Positions 25,090 through 30,761 of a stretch of DNA of 64,000 bases are shown here, piece after piece. Under the pieces are notes generated by a model. The model was not told the origin of the DNA. It was given only the letters and a program-made list of their open reading frames with translations, and did not search any database. The translations under genes were made by a program, and so were the position numbers. Within the stretch, counting starts at the first letter, position 1. Each line of letters opens with the position of its first letter. Origin of the DNA: Kangiella profundi (GTDB lineage: Bacteria > Pseudomonadota > Gammaproteobacteria > Enterobacterales > Kangiellaceae); the NCBI RefSeq assembly GCF_002838765.1, contig NZ_CP025120.1:1922001-1986000 (forward strand). Direction: 5' to 3'.

Positions 25090-26358
25090 CTACTCAGCAG
25101 CAGCTTGTTGTTGGTTGTCATAAATCAGTAGAGGCTCAGCCTCACCCTTTACCACAGCCGCATCAATGCATACTTTGCTGACGCCTTCGAGGGAAGGTAA
25201 GTTATACATGGTGTCTAATAAAATTTCTTCAAGGATAGAGCGTAAACCACGAGCCCCCGTACGACGCTGCATAGCTTTATGAGCAATTGCAGACAACGCA
25301 TCTTTGCGGAACTCAAGATCCACATTTTCCAATGAAAACAATTTACTATACTGCTTAGTTAGTGCGTTCTTGGGCTCTGTCAGGATTCTGATTAAGGCAT
25401 CTTCATCAAGCTCCTGCAAAGTTGTAACAATTGGTAAACGGCCAATAAACTCAGGGATTAGTCCAAACTTCACTAAGTCATCAGGCTCGACAGCTTTGAG
25501 CATTTCGCCAATAGCCTTGCCTTCTTTGACCTGCTTAACGTCAGCGCCGAAACCAATACCGCCTTTTTCGGTGCGTTCCTGAATGATCTTCTCAAGACCG
25601 GCAAAAGCACCACCACAAACAAATAGGATATTTCCAGTATCAACCTGCAGGAACTCCTGCTGCGGGTGCTTGCGACCGCCTTGCGGTGGTACGGATGCAA
25701 CAGTACCTTCAATCAATTTAAGCAAAGCCTGCTGAACACCTTCACCTGAAACGTCACGTGTAATAGATGGGTTATCGGACTTACGAGAAATCTTATCAAT
25801 CTCGTCAATGTAAACGATTCCGCGCTGAGCTTTCTCAACATCATAATCACACTTCTGCAACAACTTCTGAATGATATTCTCGACGTCTTCACCCACATAA
25901 CCGGCTTCGGTCAAGGTTGTCGCATCTGCCATAGTAAAAGGCACATCGAGCATGCGAGCCAAAGTCTCAGCAAGCAGGGTTTTACCACTACCGGTTGGAC
26001 CAATTAAAAGGATGTTACTTTTACCCAGTTCAACATCTTTATGTTCGCTGGAAGCAGGCTCACTCTCTAATCGTTTGTAGTGATTGTAAACAGCTACAGA
26101 CAATACCTTTTTGGCACGTTCCTGGCCAATAACATACTGCTCTAAAAAATCGGCTATTTCTTTTGGCTTAGGCAGGTGGCTACGCGATTCTTTTGCGGCA
26201 ACCTCCTGAATCTCTTCAATAATTATATCGTTACATAAATCTACGCATTCATTGCATATAAAAACTCTTGGACCGGCAATGAGCTTCTTTACTTCATGCT
26301 GGCTTTTGCCGCAGAAAGAGCAATATAACGTTTTGTTGTCTGAGTTATCGCTACTCAT
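25090..26358 (-). CDS. clpX: ClpX, ATP-dependent unfoldase subunit of ClpXP
   Basis: 422 aa (E. coli 424). The N-terminal zinc-binding domain has a CxxC-x18-CxxC pattern (CSFC ... CNEC). AAA+ motifs are Walker A GPTGSGKT, Walker B VYIDEIDK, the pore loop GYVGED, and the sensor 2 region GARGLR. It unfolds tagged substrates and feeds them to ClpP. In this genome it is not adjacent to clpP: two unrelated genes and about 3.8 kb separate them. A possible heat-shock promoter lies upstream. Confidence 0.97.
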
Positions 26359-26660
26359 CGTTACCTCATAAGACTGTCATTACAGTCCGTTAGACATTTC
26401 CACCGCCAAAAGGCGTTTCTATCACGCTTTATTGAGGCTAAACCTCCGAAACTCAAGGTCTGGCACTCATTTTATTTGTCGCTACTAATTACAGTATCAA
26501 AATAATTACTCTAACAAAAGCACAAATCCCTTCACTTACTGTCTAATCTACAGTAACCAGAACAGCTGTAGCCAGGTTAGTACCAACATTTACTTATGTT
26601 AATATGCTTAACATTATAGAGCTCAGTACCAGAACCAAGGAACTTCATAGAGACAGACTT
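26359..26660. other. Divergent intergenic region between clpX and the phosphatase-kinase gene
   Basis: About 300 bp. It holds the clpX upstream region with a sigma-32-like element at 26431-26458. An upstream in-frame ATG for the plus-strand gene lies at 26604, but the segment it would add does not look like coding start sequence. No RNA gene or repeat is seen. Confidence 0.5.
26431..26458 (-). promoter_or_regulatory. Possible sigma-32 (heat shock) promoter of clpX
   Basis: Minus strand: CCTTGAG (26452-26458), a 14-bp spacer, then CCTCAAT (26431-26437). It resembles the RpoH consensus CTTGAA / CCCCAT. The leader would be about 65 nt. Matching is partial and no start site is known. Confidence 0.35.
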
Positions 26661-28556
26661 ATGGACCGTATCAAATCATCACTATTTAAGGTATTCCTGA
26701 TATTCACTTTGATAACCAGTGGATTGCTCAATGCAAACCCGGTTCAAAATAAAACCGTAGTATTAACAGATGTGCATGGCGACTATACCTCGTTGGTCAG
26801 TCTGCTTAAGACTACAGATATAGTAAACGACGAACTGGAATGGAGTGGTGGTACGGCTACCTTGATAAGCCTGGGGGATAATCTGGACCGAGGAGCAGAA
26901 TCACGCAAAGTCATCGACTTGTTTATGAGACTTGAAGATAAGGCCGCTAATAGTGGTGGCAATGTCATAGTTCTTCTTGGCAATCATGAAATTATGAACA
27001 TCATTGCTGATCTTCGTTATGTCTCTGATCAGGAGTTTCTTGCTTTCAAACCAGAAGAATCGGCCAGCTACAGAGAATCAGTCTACGAGGACTATCTCAA
27101 TTATTCTAAGCTTGAACATTCTGATGAAAGTCTGAAAAGCTTTAATCAGCTATATCCACCCGGTTATTTTGGTCTGGTCAAGGCCTATTCCCCTTCAGGC
27201 AAATATGGCAAATGGTTACTTGAGAAGGATACGGTCAAAGTTTATCGGGATCGACTTTATCTACACGCTGGTATCTCTGAAGAGCTGCTCGACCTTGGTT
27301 TAACTGAGCAGCAGATGAATAGTCAAATTCGCCAGACTGTTAAGTCCTATGCTGAGCTCTATCACGAATTTATAGAGCTGGGATTGTTTAAACATTATTT
27401 CAATAAACGTGAAAGAATCGAAGTTCTGGAGGCACTATTAGCTGGTCAGATTAAACAGGATAGATTTACAAAGCGGAGCGTACTCAAGAAAGCTGAAGAG
27501 TTTATAGAACTCTCCCAGTCCCTGTTAATTACCACACAGGGACCAGTTTGGTATCGCGGTAATATTTATTGTCATGAATATATGGAAAGCCACACCATAG
27601 AAAAAGCATTAAAACACTTTGGAGTTAAGCAAATTCTTGTTGGCCATACCCCGGATGATAGCCGGGTTGCACGATCTCGTTTTGATGGAAAACTGGTTCT
27701 TCTAGATACAGGCATGCTGCAGGCATATTATAAAGGCCAGCCCACTGCTGCAGTAATAGAAAATAACCAACTCCGTTTAATCAACCTGAAGGATCCAAGC
27801 AACACTGAGCCACAACCTGATCCAGTGAGAAAGCCTTTGTACCCAAATCAATTGAGTGATGAGTACTTATCACAATTTTTCGCAAAGGCAGAAGTAATCT
27901 CTGAAAAACCGTTGTCAGACTTTTACAGTAAACCCTTAAAGCTAACTTTTGAGCATCAGGGGCAACAGCATAATGCAATATTCAAATATATGGATAGTGA
28001 TCCAAAACTAGAAAGCAAAAAAAGGCATGCTCGTCAGGATAATTTTGCCGATCGTTTTTTATATGATTTAGTAGCCTACAAACTGGATAGGCTCTTAAAT
28101 TTATACATGGTTCCGTATACAGCAGCCTATTCCTACAAAGATCAAGATGGCATCATTCAATATTGGATTGAAGTCTCCATCAGTAAAACTGAACTTATAC
28201 AAAGTAAGCAAAAGCTTGAGGGTTACTGCTCTGCTGATGATGAAGAAGAGTTAATGCAAATATTCGATTTGCTAATTCATAATGACGACAGAAATACAGG
28301 TAATAAACTTTATAGCATAGATACCGGTTATTTATGGCTCATCGACCATACCAGAAGCTTCCGTAATCTATACACATTACCAGAATACGATCTCCCTCCG
28401 GTAAGAAAACTATCTGTTCAGTTAGAGCAACAGTTAAAGTCCCTATCTAAGGATAAGCTCAAAGCTGAATTAGGAATCCTGTTGAATGATAAACAGATAG
28501 TGGCACTGCTCAAAAGAAGAGATAAAATATTGCAGCTTTATGGCCATAATTATTAA
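26661..28556 (+). CDS. Secreted PPP-type metallophosphatase fused to an atypical kinase-like domain
   Basis: 631 aa from the ATG at 26661, where a signal peptide (residues 1-25) begins. The ATG at 26604 would put 19 polar residues before it. Residues about 30-380 form a PPP-family serine/threonine phosphatase domain: D37-x-H39-G40-D41, G72-D73-xx-D76-R77-G78, G107-N-H-E110, then LHAGI and GHTP. Residues about 420-600 resemble the bacterial PI3/4-kinase-like or HipA-like fold. A putative ATP-binding Lys442 (AIFK), a VAYKLDRLL-xx-YMVP helix, a catalytic loop HNDDRNTGN (540-548) and a metal-binding D562-H-T-R-S-F are visible. Opposing activities in one extracytoplasmic protein are inferred from motifs only. 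Codon use looks like its neighbours. Confidence 0.75.
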   Translation: MDRIKSSLFKVFLIFTLITSGLLNANPVQNKTVVLTDVHGDYTSLVSLLKTTDIVNDELEWSGGTATLISLGDNLDRGAESRKVIDLFMRLEDKAANSGGNVIVLLGNHEIMNIIADLRYVSDQEFLAFKPEESASYRESVYEDYLNYSKLEHSDESLKSFNQLYPPGYFGLVKAYSPSGKYGKWLLEKDTVKVYRDRLYLHAGISEELLDLGLTEQQMNSQIRQTVKSYAELYHEFIELGLFKHYFNKRERIEVLEALLAGQIKQDRFTKRSVLKKAEEFIELSQSLLITTQGPVWYRGNIYCHEYMESHTIEKALKHFGVKQILVGHTPDDSRVARSRFDGKLVLLDTGMLQAYYKGQPTAAVIENNQLRLINLKDPSNTEPQPDPVRKPLYPNQLSDEYLSQFFAKAEVISEKPLSDFYSKPLKLTFEHQGQQHNAIFKYMDSDPKLESKKRHARQDNFADRFLYDLVAYKLDRLLNLYMVPYTAAYSYKDQDGIIQYWIEVSISKTELIQSKQKLEGYCSADDEEELMQIFDLLIHNDDRNTGNKLYSIDTGYLWLIDHTRSFRNLYTLPEYDLPPVRKLSVQLEQQLKSLSKDKLKAELGILLNDKQIVALLKRRDKILQLYGHNY

Positions 28557-28585: not shown

Positions 28586-29929
28586 TTACTGTTTTTTTGC
28601 CGACCATGCGATCTCGTCTTCCATGTCTCTATAACGGTTACGAATCCTGAAAGCGATGAGGAAACAGCAAAATGCTAGTAAAGCATTAAGCATAATAAAA
28701 CCAATTTTATTTACATCATAAAATGTGACGCCGATGGCAACCACTGCACCATACAATAAGTCACCAAAACGATAGAAGAATCCTTCAATGACGTTCTTTC
28801 CAATATATTTATCTTCTCTCGATATGGGCAGAAAAAGGGCATGACGGGTGGTATTCTGGATTGAATAATTGGCGCTGTTTTCTACGATTAGAGTCCATTT
28901 AATCAAAGCAAATATCGGTAGGTATAACACCAAAGTGTAATTAAACATCATCAAGGTGGGTAAGATTAATATAGATGCGCCTACGCCAATCCACTTGAAA
29001 ATCTTCGCAACGAGAAAAATCTGCAGCAGAAGTCCAAAAAGTGTAATCCATGCAATATATCCAGCATAAAATTCTGTCATATATAACTGCCTGTCATCAC
29101 CTACCAGCTCAAGGCCTGAGGCAAATTCGACAACAAACTTGGCTAAAATGTATTCCCCCATAGAGTTTATAAAATTAATCAGCACAATAAAGGCTGCGAT
29201 AAGAGCCAGGTATGGTTTTTTTAAAAGTTTTACAATTGCAAGATACCACTTCTGGGACTGTATCGGCTCTGCCGATGACATAGACCTGGAATCTGAAGGT
29301 ACTGCTTTAAAACAATAAGTGGTTAGAAGAGCTGCAATAACCAACAATAATGCTGAAAGCACCATCAAACCAGTGACCCCAATCAATTGATAGCTCCAAC
29401 CTGCACACCGGGATCCTACCCATGCTCCGATAGCCCCACCGACTGCAATCAAAATAAATAAACGACTACCCGCTTCAGTGCTGTAGCAATCAGCGCAAAA
29501 TGCCCAATAAAGAGCGATCACAACCACGCTGAATACACCTAACCAGATATAAAAAATAACGCCTATCGCAGCTCCTATATAACTCAATGAAGCGAAGATA
29601 ATGATGTTCATACTAAAAAAAAGCATCACGGCTTTAATAAATCGTGAATGGTCATTATTTCTCGAATAGGCAAAATAAAATTTACTGAAGAGAGGCGCCA
29701 GTAAAAGCAAAAGTCCAGCTTGTATTGAAGTTGAATAGCTTTTTACTTCCGCAGTACTTTCGGAAAGGATCAGCGGATCCCTTATGACTTTAAGCAGATA
29801 ATAGGAAAACATGAGTATGAAAAGAGTCAGAAAATGCAGTGCTGTGCTTTTGCCTTCTCCTGCACGGATTGTGACAATTTTAGAGAGTTGAGACTCTAAC
29901 CAGCTGAATTCCTGTTGTTTGTTATCCAT
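28586..29929 (-). CDS. NTP/NDP exchange (ATP/ADP translocase, Tlc-like) family membrane carrier
   Basis: 447 aa with about twelve hydrophobic helices. The family-specific stretch near residue 355 (ENSANYSIQNTTRHALFLPI, then SREDKYIGKNVIEGFFYRFGD) and the N-terminal YYLLKVIRDPLIL match the Tlc-type nucleotide carrier superfamily. That family includes parasite ATP/ADP exchangers, but free-living bacteria carry divergent members of unknown substrate. The key exchanger residues were not verified. It is convergent with the phosphatase-kinase gene (29 bp between stops). It lies upstream of neither clp gene's promoter, so it is an independent unit. Confidence 0.75.
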   Translation of the reverse strand: MDNKQQEFSWLESQLSKIVTIRAGEGKSTALHFLTLFILMFSYYLLKVIRDPLILSESTAEVKSYSTSIQAGLLLLLAPLFSKFYFAYSRNNDHSRFIKAVMLFFSMNIIIFASLSYIGAAIGVIFYIWLGVFSVVVIALYWAFCADCYSTEAGSRLFILIAVGGAIGAWVGSRCAGWSYQLIGVTGLMVLSALLLVIAALLTTYCFKAVPSDSRSMSSAEPIQSQKWYLAIVKLLKKPYLALIAAFIVLINFINSMGEYILAKFVVEFASGLELVGDDRQLYMTEFYAGYIAWITLFGLLLQIFLVAKIFKWIGVGASILILPTLMMFNYTLVLYLPIFALIKWTLIVENSANYSIQNTTRHALFLPISREDKYIGKNVIEGFFYRFGDLLYGAVVAIGVTFYDVNKIGFIMLNALLAFCCFLIAFRIRNRYRDMEDEIAWSAKKQ

Positions 29930-30143: not shown

Positions 30144-30761
30144 TTAACTTTGTTTTCTTGAACTGATAATGGAGTCTACCAGACCGTATTTCACGGCTTC
30201 ATCAGCGGTCAGGAAATTATCACGATCAGTATCCTTCTCAACCTCTTCAACTGTTTTACCGCAGTGATCTGCCATGATGGAGTTAAGTCTATGTTTCAAC
30301 TCAGTAATTTCCTGGGCATGAATTGCAATATCTGAGGCCTGGCCTTGGAAGCCGCCTAATGGTTGATGAATCATCATACGTGAATTTGGCAAGGTATGAC
30401 GCTTACCCTTTGCACCACCAGCCAACAATAAAGCACCCATACTTGCCGCTTGCCCTACACAAACCGTTGAAACATCAGGACGTATAAACTGCATAGTGTC
30501 ATAGATAGCCAAACCAGCAGTTACGACACCACCTGGCGAATTGATATATAAATGAATATCTTTGTCTGGATTATCAGACTCCAGGAATAACATTTGAGCG
30601 ACAATTGAATTGGCCATGTAATCTTCTACCTGACCGACACAGAAAATAACGCGTTCTTTTAATAGTCTGGAATATATGTCATATGAGCGCTCACCGCGTG
30701 AGGTCTGCTCAACTACCATTGGGATAAGGCCAGATGCCTGAGTTTCTATAATTTTACTCAT
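30144..30761 (-). CDS. clpP: ClpP, proteolytic subunit of ClpXP/ClpAP
   Basis: 205 aa (E. coli 207). The catalytic Ser lies in [14 protein letters not shown], the His in [10 protein letters not shown], and the Asp in the [11 protein letters not shown] region. The oxyanion segment YINSPGG is present. It forms the tetradecameric serine protease chamber fed by ClpX or ClpA. It is 84 nt downstream of tig, with a terminator between, and is followed by its own terminator rather than clpX. Confidence 0.97.

Follow-up and report, generated by a model that had tools for sequence, protein, structure and literature searches.

A fused phosphatase-kinase gene of Kangiella profundi beside an ATP/ADP-type carrier gene: a candidate for reversible phosphorylation in the bacterial envelope

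How could a kinase work outside the bacterial cytoplasm, where its nucleotide would have to be supplied from within? Phosphorylation at the expense of ATP is generally assumed to end, in bacteria, at the inner membrane, since no ATP supply is known in the periplasm. The question is raised by a gene of Kangiella profundi at positions 26661..28556 of the window (the whole stretch of 64,000 nucleotides analysed, NZ_CP025120.1 positions 1,922,001 to 1,986,000), whose single frame of 631 residues encodes a signal-like N-terminal helix, then a PPP phosphatase and then a C-terminal kinase-like domain. Its neighbour encodes a relative of ATP/ADP carriers. A first-pass annotation, made from the letters alone, had proposed a secreted phosphatase fused to a kinase-like domain, and its interpretation as a whole is supported by the analysis given here. 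We regard it as fairly probable that the protein is an exported kinase-phosphatase fed by ATP/ADP exchange through the neighbouring carrier. An intact kinase site that travels with an ATP/ADP-type carrier makes the assumption of a periplasm without ATP supply directly testable. The features of the fusion gene are as follows.

26661..28556, + strand: fused, putatively exported phosphatase-kinase gene (631 amino acids; open frame, full-length homologues, AlphaFold model)
26661..26735, + strand: predicted signal peptide, residues 1-25 (hydrophobic stretch from residue 11; N-terminal helix 2-23 in the model)
26748..27797, + strand: PPP metallophosphatase domain, residues 30-379
27570..27572, + strand: Cys304, phosphatase part
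27843..28553, + strand: Fam20/PI4K/HipA-like kinase domain, residues 395-631
27984..27986, + strand: Lys442, predicted ATP-site lysine
28227..28229, + strand: Cys523, kinase part, predicted disulfide partner of Cys304
28287..28304, + strand: predicted catalytic loop, Asp543-Arg544-xxx-Asn548
28344..28346, + strand: Asp562, predicted metal-binding Asp (DFG equivalent)

The frame runs uninterrupted from the ATG at 26661 to a stop ending at 28556; an alternative ATG lies upstream at 26604, and close Kangiella homologues likewise have 631 residues. A protein search returned 207 homologues at E≤0.001, the best 120 of which span 85-100% of the query. The closest among the matches listed is a Kangiella sp. 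protein of 98% identity, and the names, where given, read metallophosphoesterase, calcineurin-like phosphoesterase or hypothetical protein. A gene-calling artefact or wrong frame is ruled out by these full-length homologues. The AlphaFold model of the whole protein has a mean predicted local distance difference test score (pLDDT) of 94.2 and a predicted template-modelling score of 0.90, and the kinase part folded alone has a mean pLDDT of 89.9. Given the number of homologues, their coverage and the confident models, the resemblance is not due to chance. Residue counts below refer to alignment A2, whose 98 rows comprise 97 homologues out of the best 120 plus the window protein itself (the remaining 23, including P0002 and P0036, were omitted, and the 87 homologues beyond the best 120 lie outside it). 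Promoter and terminator scans gave chance-level signals only.

The N-terminus resembles a signal peptide, as had been noted from the letters, and cleavage would fall after Ala25 as judged by eye. A charge-free hydrophobic 13-mer lies within the first 60 residues in 90 of the 98 homologues; several of the other eight start within the domain or carry weaker signals, and lipobox-like N-termini occur in four. This export rule is crude and our own, and flags one (Lon) of six window genes taken by eye to be cytosolic. It is likely, as far as sequence can indicate, that the fusion protein is exported.

The phosphatase part carries the DxH, GDxxDRG, GNHE and GH motifs, which we take to be the PPP phosphatase motifs with their metal ligands, and D37, H39, D73, D76, H109, H202 and H329 are invariant in all 98 homologues, bearing out the motif set recognized earlier. 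Motifs, metal ligands and the fold of the solved members place it with the Shewanella-like PPP phosphatases, and its nearest solved relative is the protein-tyrosine phosphatase 1v73/2z72. A structure search with the whole model (VIA) gave phosphatases only among the matches listed, and therefore the kinase part was folded separately.

Its predicted structure shows a kinase-like fold, shared with the Fam20 kinases. Profile comparison gave a significant match to the Fam20 kinases, with Lys442, Asp543 and Asp562 opposite the Fam20 Lys, Asp and Asp that are presumably the ATP-site lysine, the catalytic and the metal-binding aspartate. Lys442 (Lys in 72 of 98) aligns with the lysine of Fam20 AMFKPM/ALFKPM, the catalytic loop with DRHHYE (Asp543 in 71 of 98, Arg544 in 98, Asn548 in 78), and Asp562 (74 of 98) with the Asp of Fam20A LDNARGF, while Asn548 faces Glu in the Fam20A/Fam20C profile alignment. 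Residue 542 is variable among homologues, so that of the pair Asp542/543 singled out in the first-pass annotation, Asp543 is the likely catalytic one. The kinase signatures reported there (Lys442, HNDDRNTGN, IDHTRSF) stand where they were placed, and the kinase-like fold, whose absence would have spoken against them, is predicted too. Membership in any of three Pfam families is rejected, each curated cut-off being missed: PI3/PI4 kinase (PF00454) with 14.4 of 27.1 bits, HipA_2 (PF20613) with 14.2 for the whole protein and 16 for the kinase part of 27, and Fam20C (PF06702) with 15.1 of 26.8. The kinase part is therefore described as a Fam20 relative and not filed as a member. HipA_2 was matched at E≤0.05 by 32 of 41 kinase parts.

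In alignment counts, a site is called intact when Lys442, Asp543, Asn548 and Asp562 are all present. Four of these are kept in 71 of the 98 homologues, three in none, two in one, one in 9 and none in 17; about 31 with all four and 0.4 with none would be expected if the sites were independent (relatedness not removed). Homologues without these residues had been named as what would speak against the kinase, and 27 of 98 do lack the full set, but each is short of two to four residues together. Such block-wise loss is as expected of a working site lost as a whole, and fold, profile and block-wise loss together exclude a random resemblance of the motifs. The ratio of nonsynonymous to synonymous substitution, from one pair each since synonymous change was saturated in the other five pairs, is 0.096 (intact pair) and 0.186 (dead pair, with the site incomplete) for the kinase, and 0.071 and 0.080 for the phosphatase. 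These estimates would fit a loss of the site in the dead pair. Two further arrangements were seen: P0036 (901 amino acids) has, by eye in alignment, a phosphatase followed by two successive kinase-like domains, and the genome of L101 holds a second kinase-like frame (L101:1628-2356, 243 amino acids, -DRND, no obvious signal peptide) with a weak kinase-profile match of 27.5 bits at genome position 356259-356528.

The two halves may be tied by a disulfide. Cys304 and Cys523 are the sole cysteines of the window protein; both are present in 96 of the 98 homologues, neither in 2 and one alone in none. In 78 fused proteins from genome loci the numbers are 68, 10 and 0. Separate halves usually have neither: of 21 phosphatase-only frames one has Cys304 (L057, truncated at the end of its contig), and of 19 separate kinase-profile matches one has Cys523 (L087, fragmented genome). 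DsbB is encoded in the same genome as the window. This both-or-neither pattern points to an interdomain Cys304-Cys523 bond.

A genome scan found at least 80 loci, mostly from Gammaproteobacteria and Acidobacteriota by record names, with one from Gemmatimonadetes and one from an Acidimicrobiia. The survey of homologues proposed in the first-pass annotation has found the same fusion repeatedly: in loci L001-L081, 63 frames hold both domains and 21 the phosphatase alone. Ten of the 21 phosphatase-only loci also contain a kinase of the family as a gene of its own, always with Asp543, Asn548 and Asp562, the three residues that define an intact kinase in all locus, co-occurrence and tree counts. By the 13-mer rule, 10 of 12 such separate kinases have a signal-like start. 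Two loci, L019 (Aliikangiella sp. G2MR2-5) and L020 (a Kangiellaceae metagenome-assembled genome, MAG), contain two reciprocally broken fused genes that flank a carrier gene (L019:7899-13221, L020:707-6084): in the first copy the phosphatase is intact and the kinase site broken (ISLDD; FIGEG), and in the second it is the phosphatase that is broken and the kinase that is intact (KDRND). This reciprocal division of labour indicates that both functions matter. A protein search with the second tandem copy gave 17 matches, itself included, and a broken phosphatase with an intact kinase was also seen in four more homologues (P0123, P0124, P0125 and P0134; P0126, its first part missing, was not scored).

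Loci in which the fused kinase is dead often hold another kinase-like gene. A CotH-type gene is present in 17 of 29 fusion loci without an intact family kinase (L026, L029-L032, L036-L040, L042, L044, L047, L048, L052, L062, L075) versus 0 of 46 other loci; for the single gene scanned, the Pfam CotH match has E 5.5e-4 and 20 bits, below the 23.8 cut-off. These CotH loci often contain a DUF4956 membrane protein and a weakly LCAT-like hydrolase, and if CotH acts outside the cytoplasm, one might speculate that DUF4956 is a candidate supplier of nucleotide or phosphate. L042, labelled as a Klebsiella pneumoniae MAG, is probably a mislabelled bin, as its fusion groups with a Rhodospirillaceae-labelled MAG beside Woeseiaceae rows. 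Five other loci with a dead fused kinase (L041, L043, L046, L049, L053) hold a PI3/PI4K-like gene with its own Asp-Asn-Asp set, which adjoins the fusion in four and lies about 6.7 kb off in L046. Two of these genes were scanned, one matching PI3_PI4_kinase at 23.6 of 27.1 bits and the other giving no match. A carrier, too, is found in every one of the five, that of L046 being just a 54-bit piece where the contig stops.

In the window, the fusion gene sits between clpX and the carrier gene, and the neighbours (clp genes named by eye from sequence) are:

28586..29929, - strand: relative of the NTT/TLC-type ATP/ADP carriers, 447 amino acids, convergent with the fusion gene and 29 bp from it
25090..26358, - strand: clpX
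30144..30761, - strand: clpP, next after the carrier gene

NTT/TLC is the commonest neighbour family, in 27 of 81 loci by clustering and 32 of 81 by profile. A profile built from 22 carriers, headed by that of the window, aligns with solved ADP,ATP carriers (9j3n at E 8.9e-42, another at 2.5e-33); the window's own carrier is a divergent relative. It is the only match of the family profile in its genome, a single contig of 2.65 Mb, where a search with Pfam TLC did not find it. Some locus carriers have a putative Ig domain (He_PIG; L013, L019) or, in one case, HEAT repeats (L056) at their end. A further carrier lineage forms its own clade (L005:9875-11197, L006, L008, L115); its members in L005, L006 and L008 lie immediately downstream of the fusion gene.

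In the fusion loci, carrier and intact kinase occur together. Among 75 fusion loci scored for any intact kinase, 36 have an intact kinase and a carrier, 10 an intact kinase without a carrier, none a dead kinase with a carrier, and 29 a dead kinase without one (one-sided Fisher p 1.2e-12, ancestry ignored). The counts become 36, 9, 0 and 25 when at least 1.8 kb on each side is required where no carrier is seen. Scoring the fused kinase alone gives 30, 10, 6 and 29 (p 4.5e-7, ancestry likewise ignored), the six dead-fused-kinase loci with a carrier being L041, L043, L046, L049 and L053, as well as L071, which has separate intact kinases. Throughout the co-occurrence, tree and cysteine counts, L085 was dropped as a presumed duplicate of L003.

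A strong kinase match (at least 90 bits) occurs in 18 of 197 genomes of the order, and in a class-wide sample of 369 genomes there is a match in 10, above 90 bits in only 3. The carrier is directly adjacent in 13 of the 18 (nine Kangiella and four others), all reading KDRND; three Kangiella genomes with broken sites (KNRDN, RDRDN, I-RDQ) have no carrier there, G371 has an intact kinase without an adjacent carrier, and in the fragmented genome G395 kinase and carrier lie on different contigs. In the window and eight intact Kangiella relatives the carrier lies between fusion and clpP. Fewer than 100 bases separate the end of the fusion from clpP in L083 and L084, both dead, and in L002, a Kangiellaceae MAG; in L003, also dead, clpP is about 6.5 kb away. 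The three dead loci (L003, L083, L084) group in the tree next to L094, a locus with an intact kinase and a carrier (support 85 within a group of support 99), so that loss is the simpler reading there. Across all loci the carrier lies upstream or downstream, on the same or the opposite strand; the link is hence not one inherited layout, and a carrier merely inherited as neighbour of clpP is unlikely, given that it is found across phyla on either side and either strand.

Several observations weigh against this reading. The association is not independent of ancestry. A tree built from 95 phosphatase parts requires at least 7 changes for any intact kinase, 11 for the fused kinase and 17 for the carrier (a carrier counted as absent only where each side offered 1.8 kb or more; L001, the same protein as the window's, L057, L061 and the broken-phosphatase copies of L019 and L020 were left out). 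Supported branches give only three independent pairs, with 2.7 the same way and 0 the other for any kinase (median p 0.25) and 2.4 versus 0.2 for the fused kinase alone (median p 0.5), which are too few pairs for significance. For ten intact fusion loci the stretch examined contains no carrier. When carriers were sought elsewhere in 34 genomes (from 37 loci; L044 not among them), seven of the ten (L004, L007, L010, L011, L015, L016, L051) had a carrier of at least 325 bits, but the genomes of L009, L018 and L086 hold only carriers of 229-277 bits, plus a 46-bit piece for L009. Dead-kinase genomes mostly have only carriers below 300 bits, but those of L038, L062 and L072 hold carriers of 337-431 bits; no carrier match was found in the L024 genome, in a search where genome completeness was mostly unstated. 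A quick tree of 70 carriers, including 22 hand-picked loci from elsewhere in the genomes, places 12 low-scoring carriers in a clade (support 100) without any kinase-locus carrier and the other unlinked ones among linked lineages, indicating a link to particular carrier lineages, with exceptions. Split loci show no clear link: a carrier is present in 4 of 10 (L056, L059, L063, L064) and absent from L065, L068, L069, L073, L074 and L076, and L081 has phosphatase and carrier with no kinase in its stretch. The hint that the neighbouring carrier is suggestive holds for fused genes (36 of 46 loci with an intact kinase, none of 29 with a dead one) and less so for split ones. Moreover, the position of Lys442 is Gln in the separate kinases of L056, L059, L063, L064, L069 and L076, with Ala at this place in L074 and Arg in L068. 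Finally, the window's carrier scores 18.8 bits against Pfam TLC (PF03219), below the cut-off of 21, and as a single sequence it has no PDB match; of four relatives from kinase loci, three reach the cut-off (29.7, 52.1 and 70.5 bits) and that of L019 lists no TLC match.

The mechanism we favour would run as follows. The fusion gene would give an exported two-headed enzyme, periplasmic or anchored to the envelope, whose halves a disulfide would keep together. The Fam20-like kinase would phosphorylate an envelope substrate, most likely a protein, and the PPP phosphatase would strip phosphate from the same substrate, while the NTT-type carrier would swap cytoplasmic ATP for periplasmic ADP and so feed the kinase. 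The substrate could instead be an envelope lipid or sugar, as for PI4KII or Fam20B, with the phosphatase acting on the same group. This is rather unlikely, as the nearest solved relative of the phosphatase part acts on protein tyrosine, and Fam20A and Fam20C outscore the xylosylkinase somewhat by sequence, a small difference.

It has also to be considered whether the kinase part transfers phosphate at all. It could be a nucleotide sensor that regulates the phosphatase, with the carrier setting the nucleotide level, and its top sequence match, Fam20A, is indeed a pseudokinase. Asp536, Arg544 and Phe567 are invariant in all 98 homologues, the 27 with an incomplete site included (the dead copies of L019 and L020, outside the 98, lack Arg544 too), which suggests that a dead domain retains its fold and may serve some other purpose; the retention of such domains across many lineages also counts against a kinase function as the whole account. 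Nevertheless, intact lineages keep Lys, both Asp and Asn together, beyond the needs of nucleotide binding, and dead-domain lineages often have another kinase-like gene in the locus, so that a sensor without phosphate transfer seems improbable. Salvage of external nucleotides, in which the carrier would import and exported enzymes would process extracellular nucleotides, recalls the characterised NTTs of parasites, which import nucleotides according to the available part of one account (PMC5381601), and the dinucleotide hydrolase ApaH is among the Foldseek matches of the phosphatase. It would leave unexplained the absence of the carrier where the kinase site is broken, and is very unlikely.

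We therefore retain the exported kinase-phosphatase with its ATP/ADP exchanger, and tentatively extend it: free-living bacteria may purposely export ATP to the periplasm through NTT carriers, for Fam20-like kinases and PPP phosphatases, disulfide-tethered or paired, that carry out reversible phosphorylation. If true, phosphorylation in the bacterial envelope would be reversible, orphan bacterial NTTs would gain a function, and animal secretory-pathway kinases would have bacterial relatives, perhaps forerunners, linking the two groups of secreted kinases. Literature searches aimed at such an exported kinase-phosphatase with a carrier found no description in open-licence papers.

Among known systems, AceK and HPr kinase/phosphorylase are bifunctional kinase/phosphatases that likewise combine opposing activities in one protein; they are cytoplasmic and have other folds than the Kangiella fusion. 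The Shewanella cold-active PPP phosphatase (1v73, 2z72; a chain of 342 amino acids) is, unlike the fusion, a solved protein without a kinase part. Fam20 kinases act in the animal secretory pathway, whereas the Kangiella relative is bacterial, fused to a phosphatase and below the Fam20C cut-off. In the portion available of a Legionella kinome paper, FAM20 is given as an example of a eukaryote- or Metazoa-specific cluster (PMC9758233); in the available text of a Fam20 review the stem 'bacteri' appears once, in the reference list (PMC7948968), and in that of a Fam20 structure paper not at all (PMC5865150). As for the carriers, NTTs in free-living bacteria and HEAT fusions were reported by Major, Embley and Williams (2017), the latter a form also found in Acidobacteriota among the locus carriers; in the available part of that paper, characterised NTTs come from parasites, endosymbionts and plastids, and no role is given for the NTTs of free-living bacteria (PMC5381601), for which one is proposed here. 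The closest parallel in logic is SLC35B1/AXER, the ATP/ADP exchanger of the endoplasmic reticulum, which, in the accessible portions of two accounts, is eukaryotic and of a different carrier family, the nucleotide sugar transporters, but would share with the Kangiella carrier the proposed task of carrying ATP into a compartment unable to make it (PMC6113206, PMC12267056).
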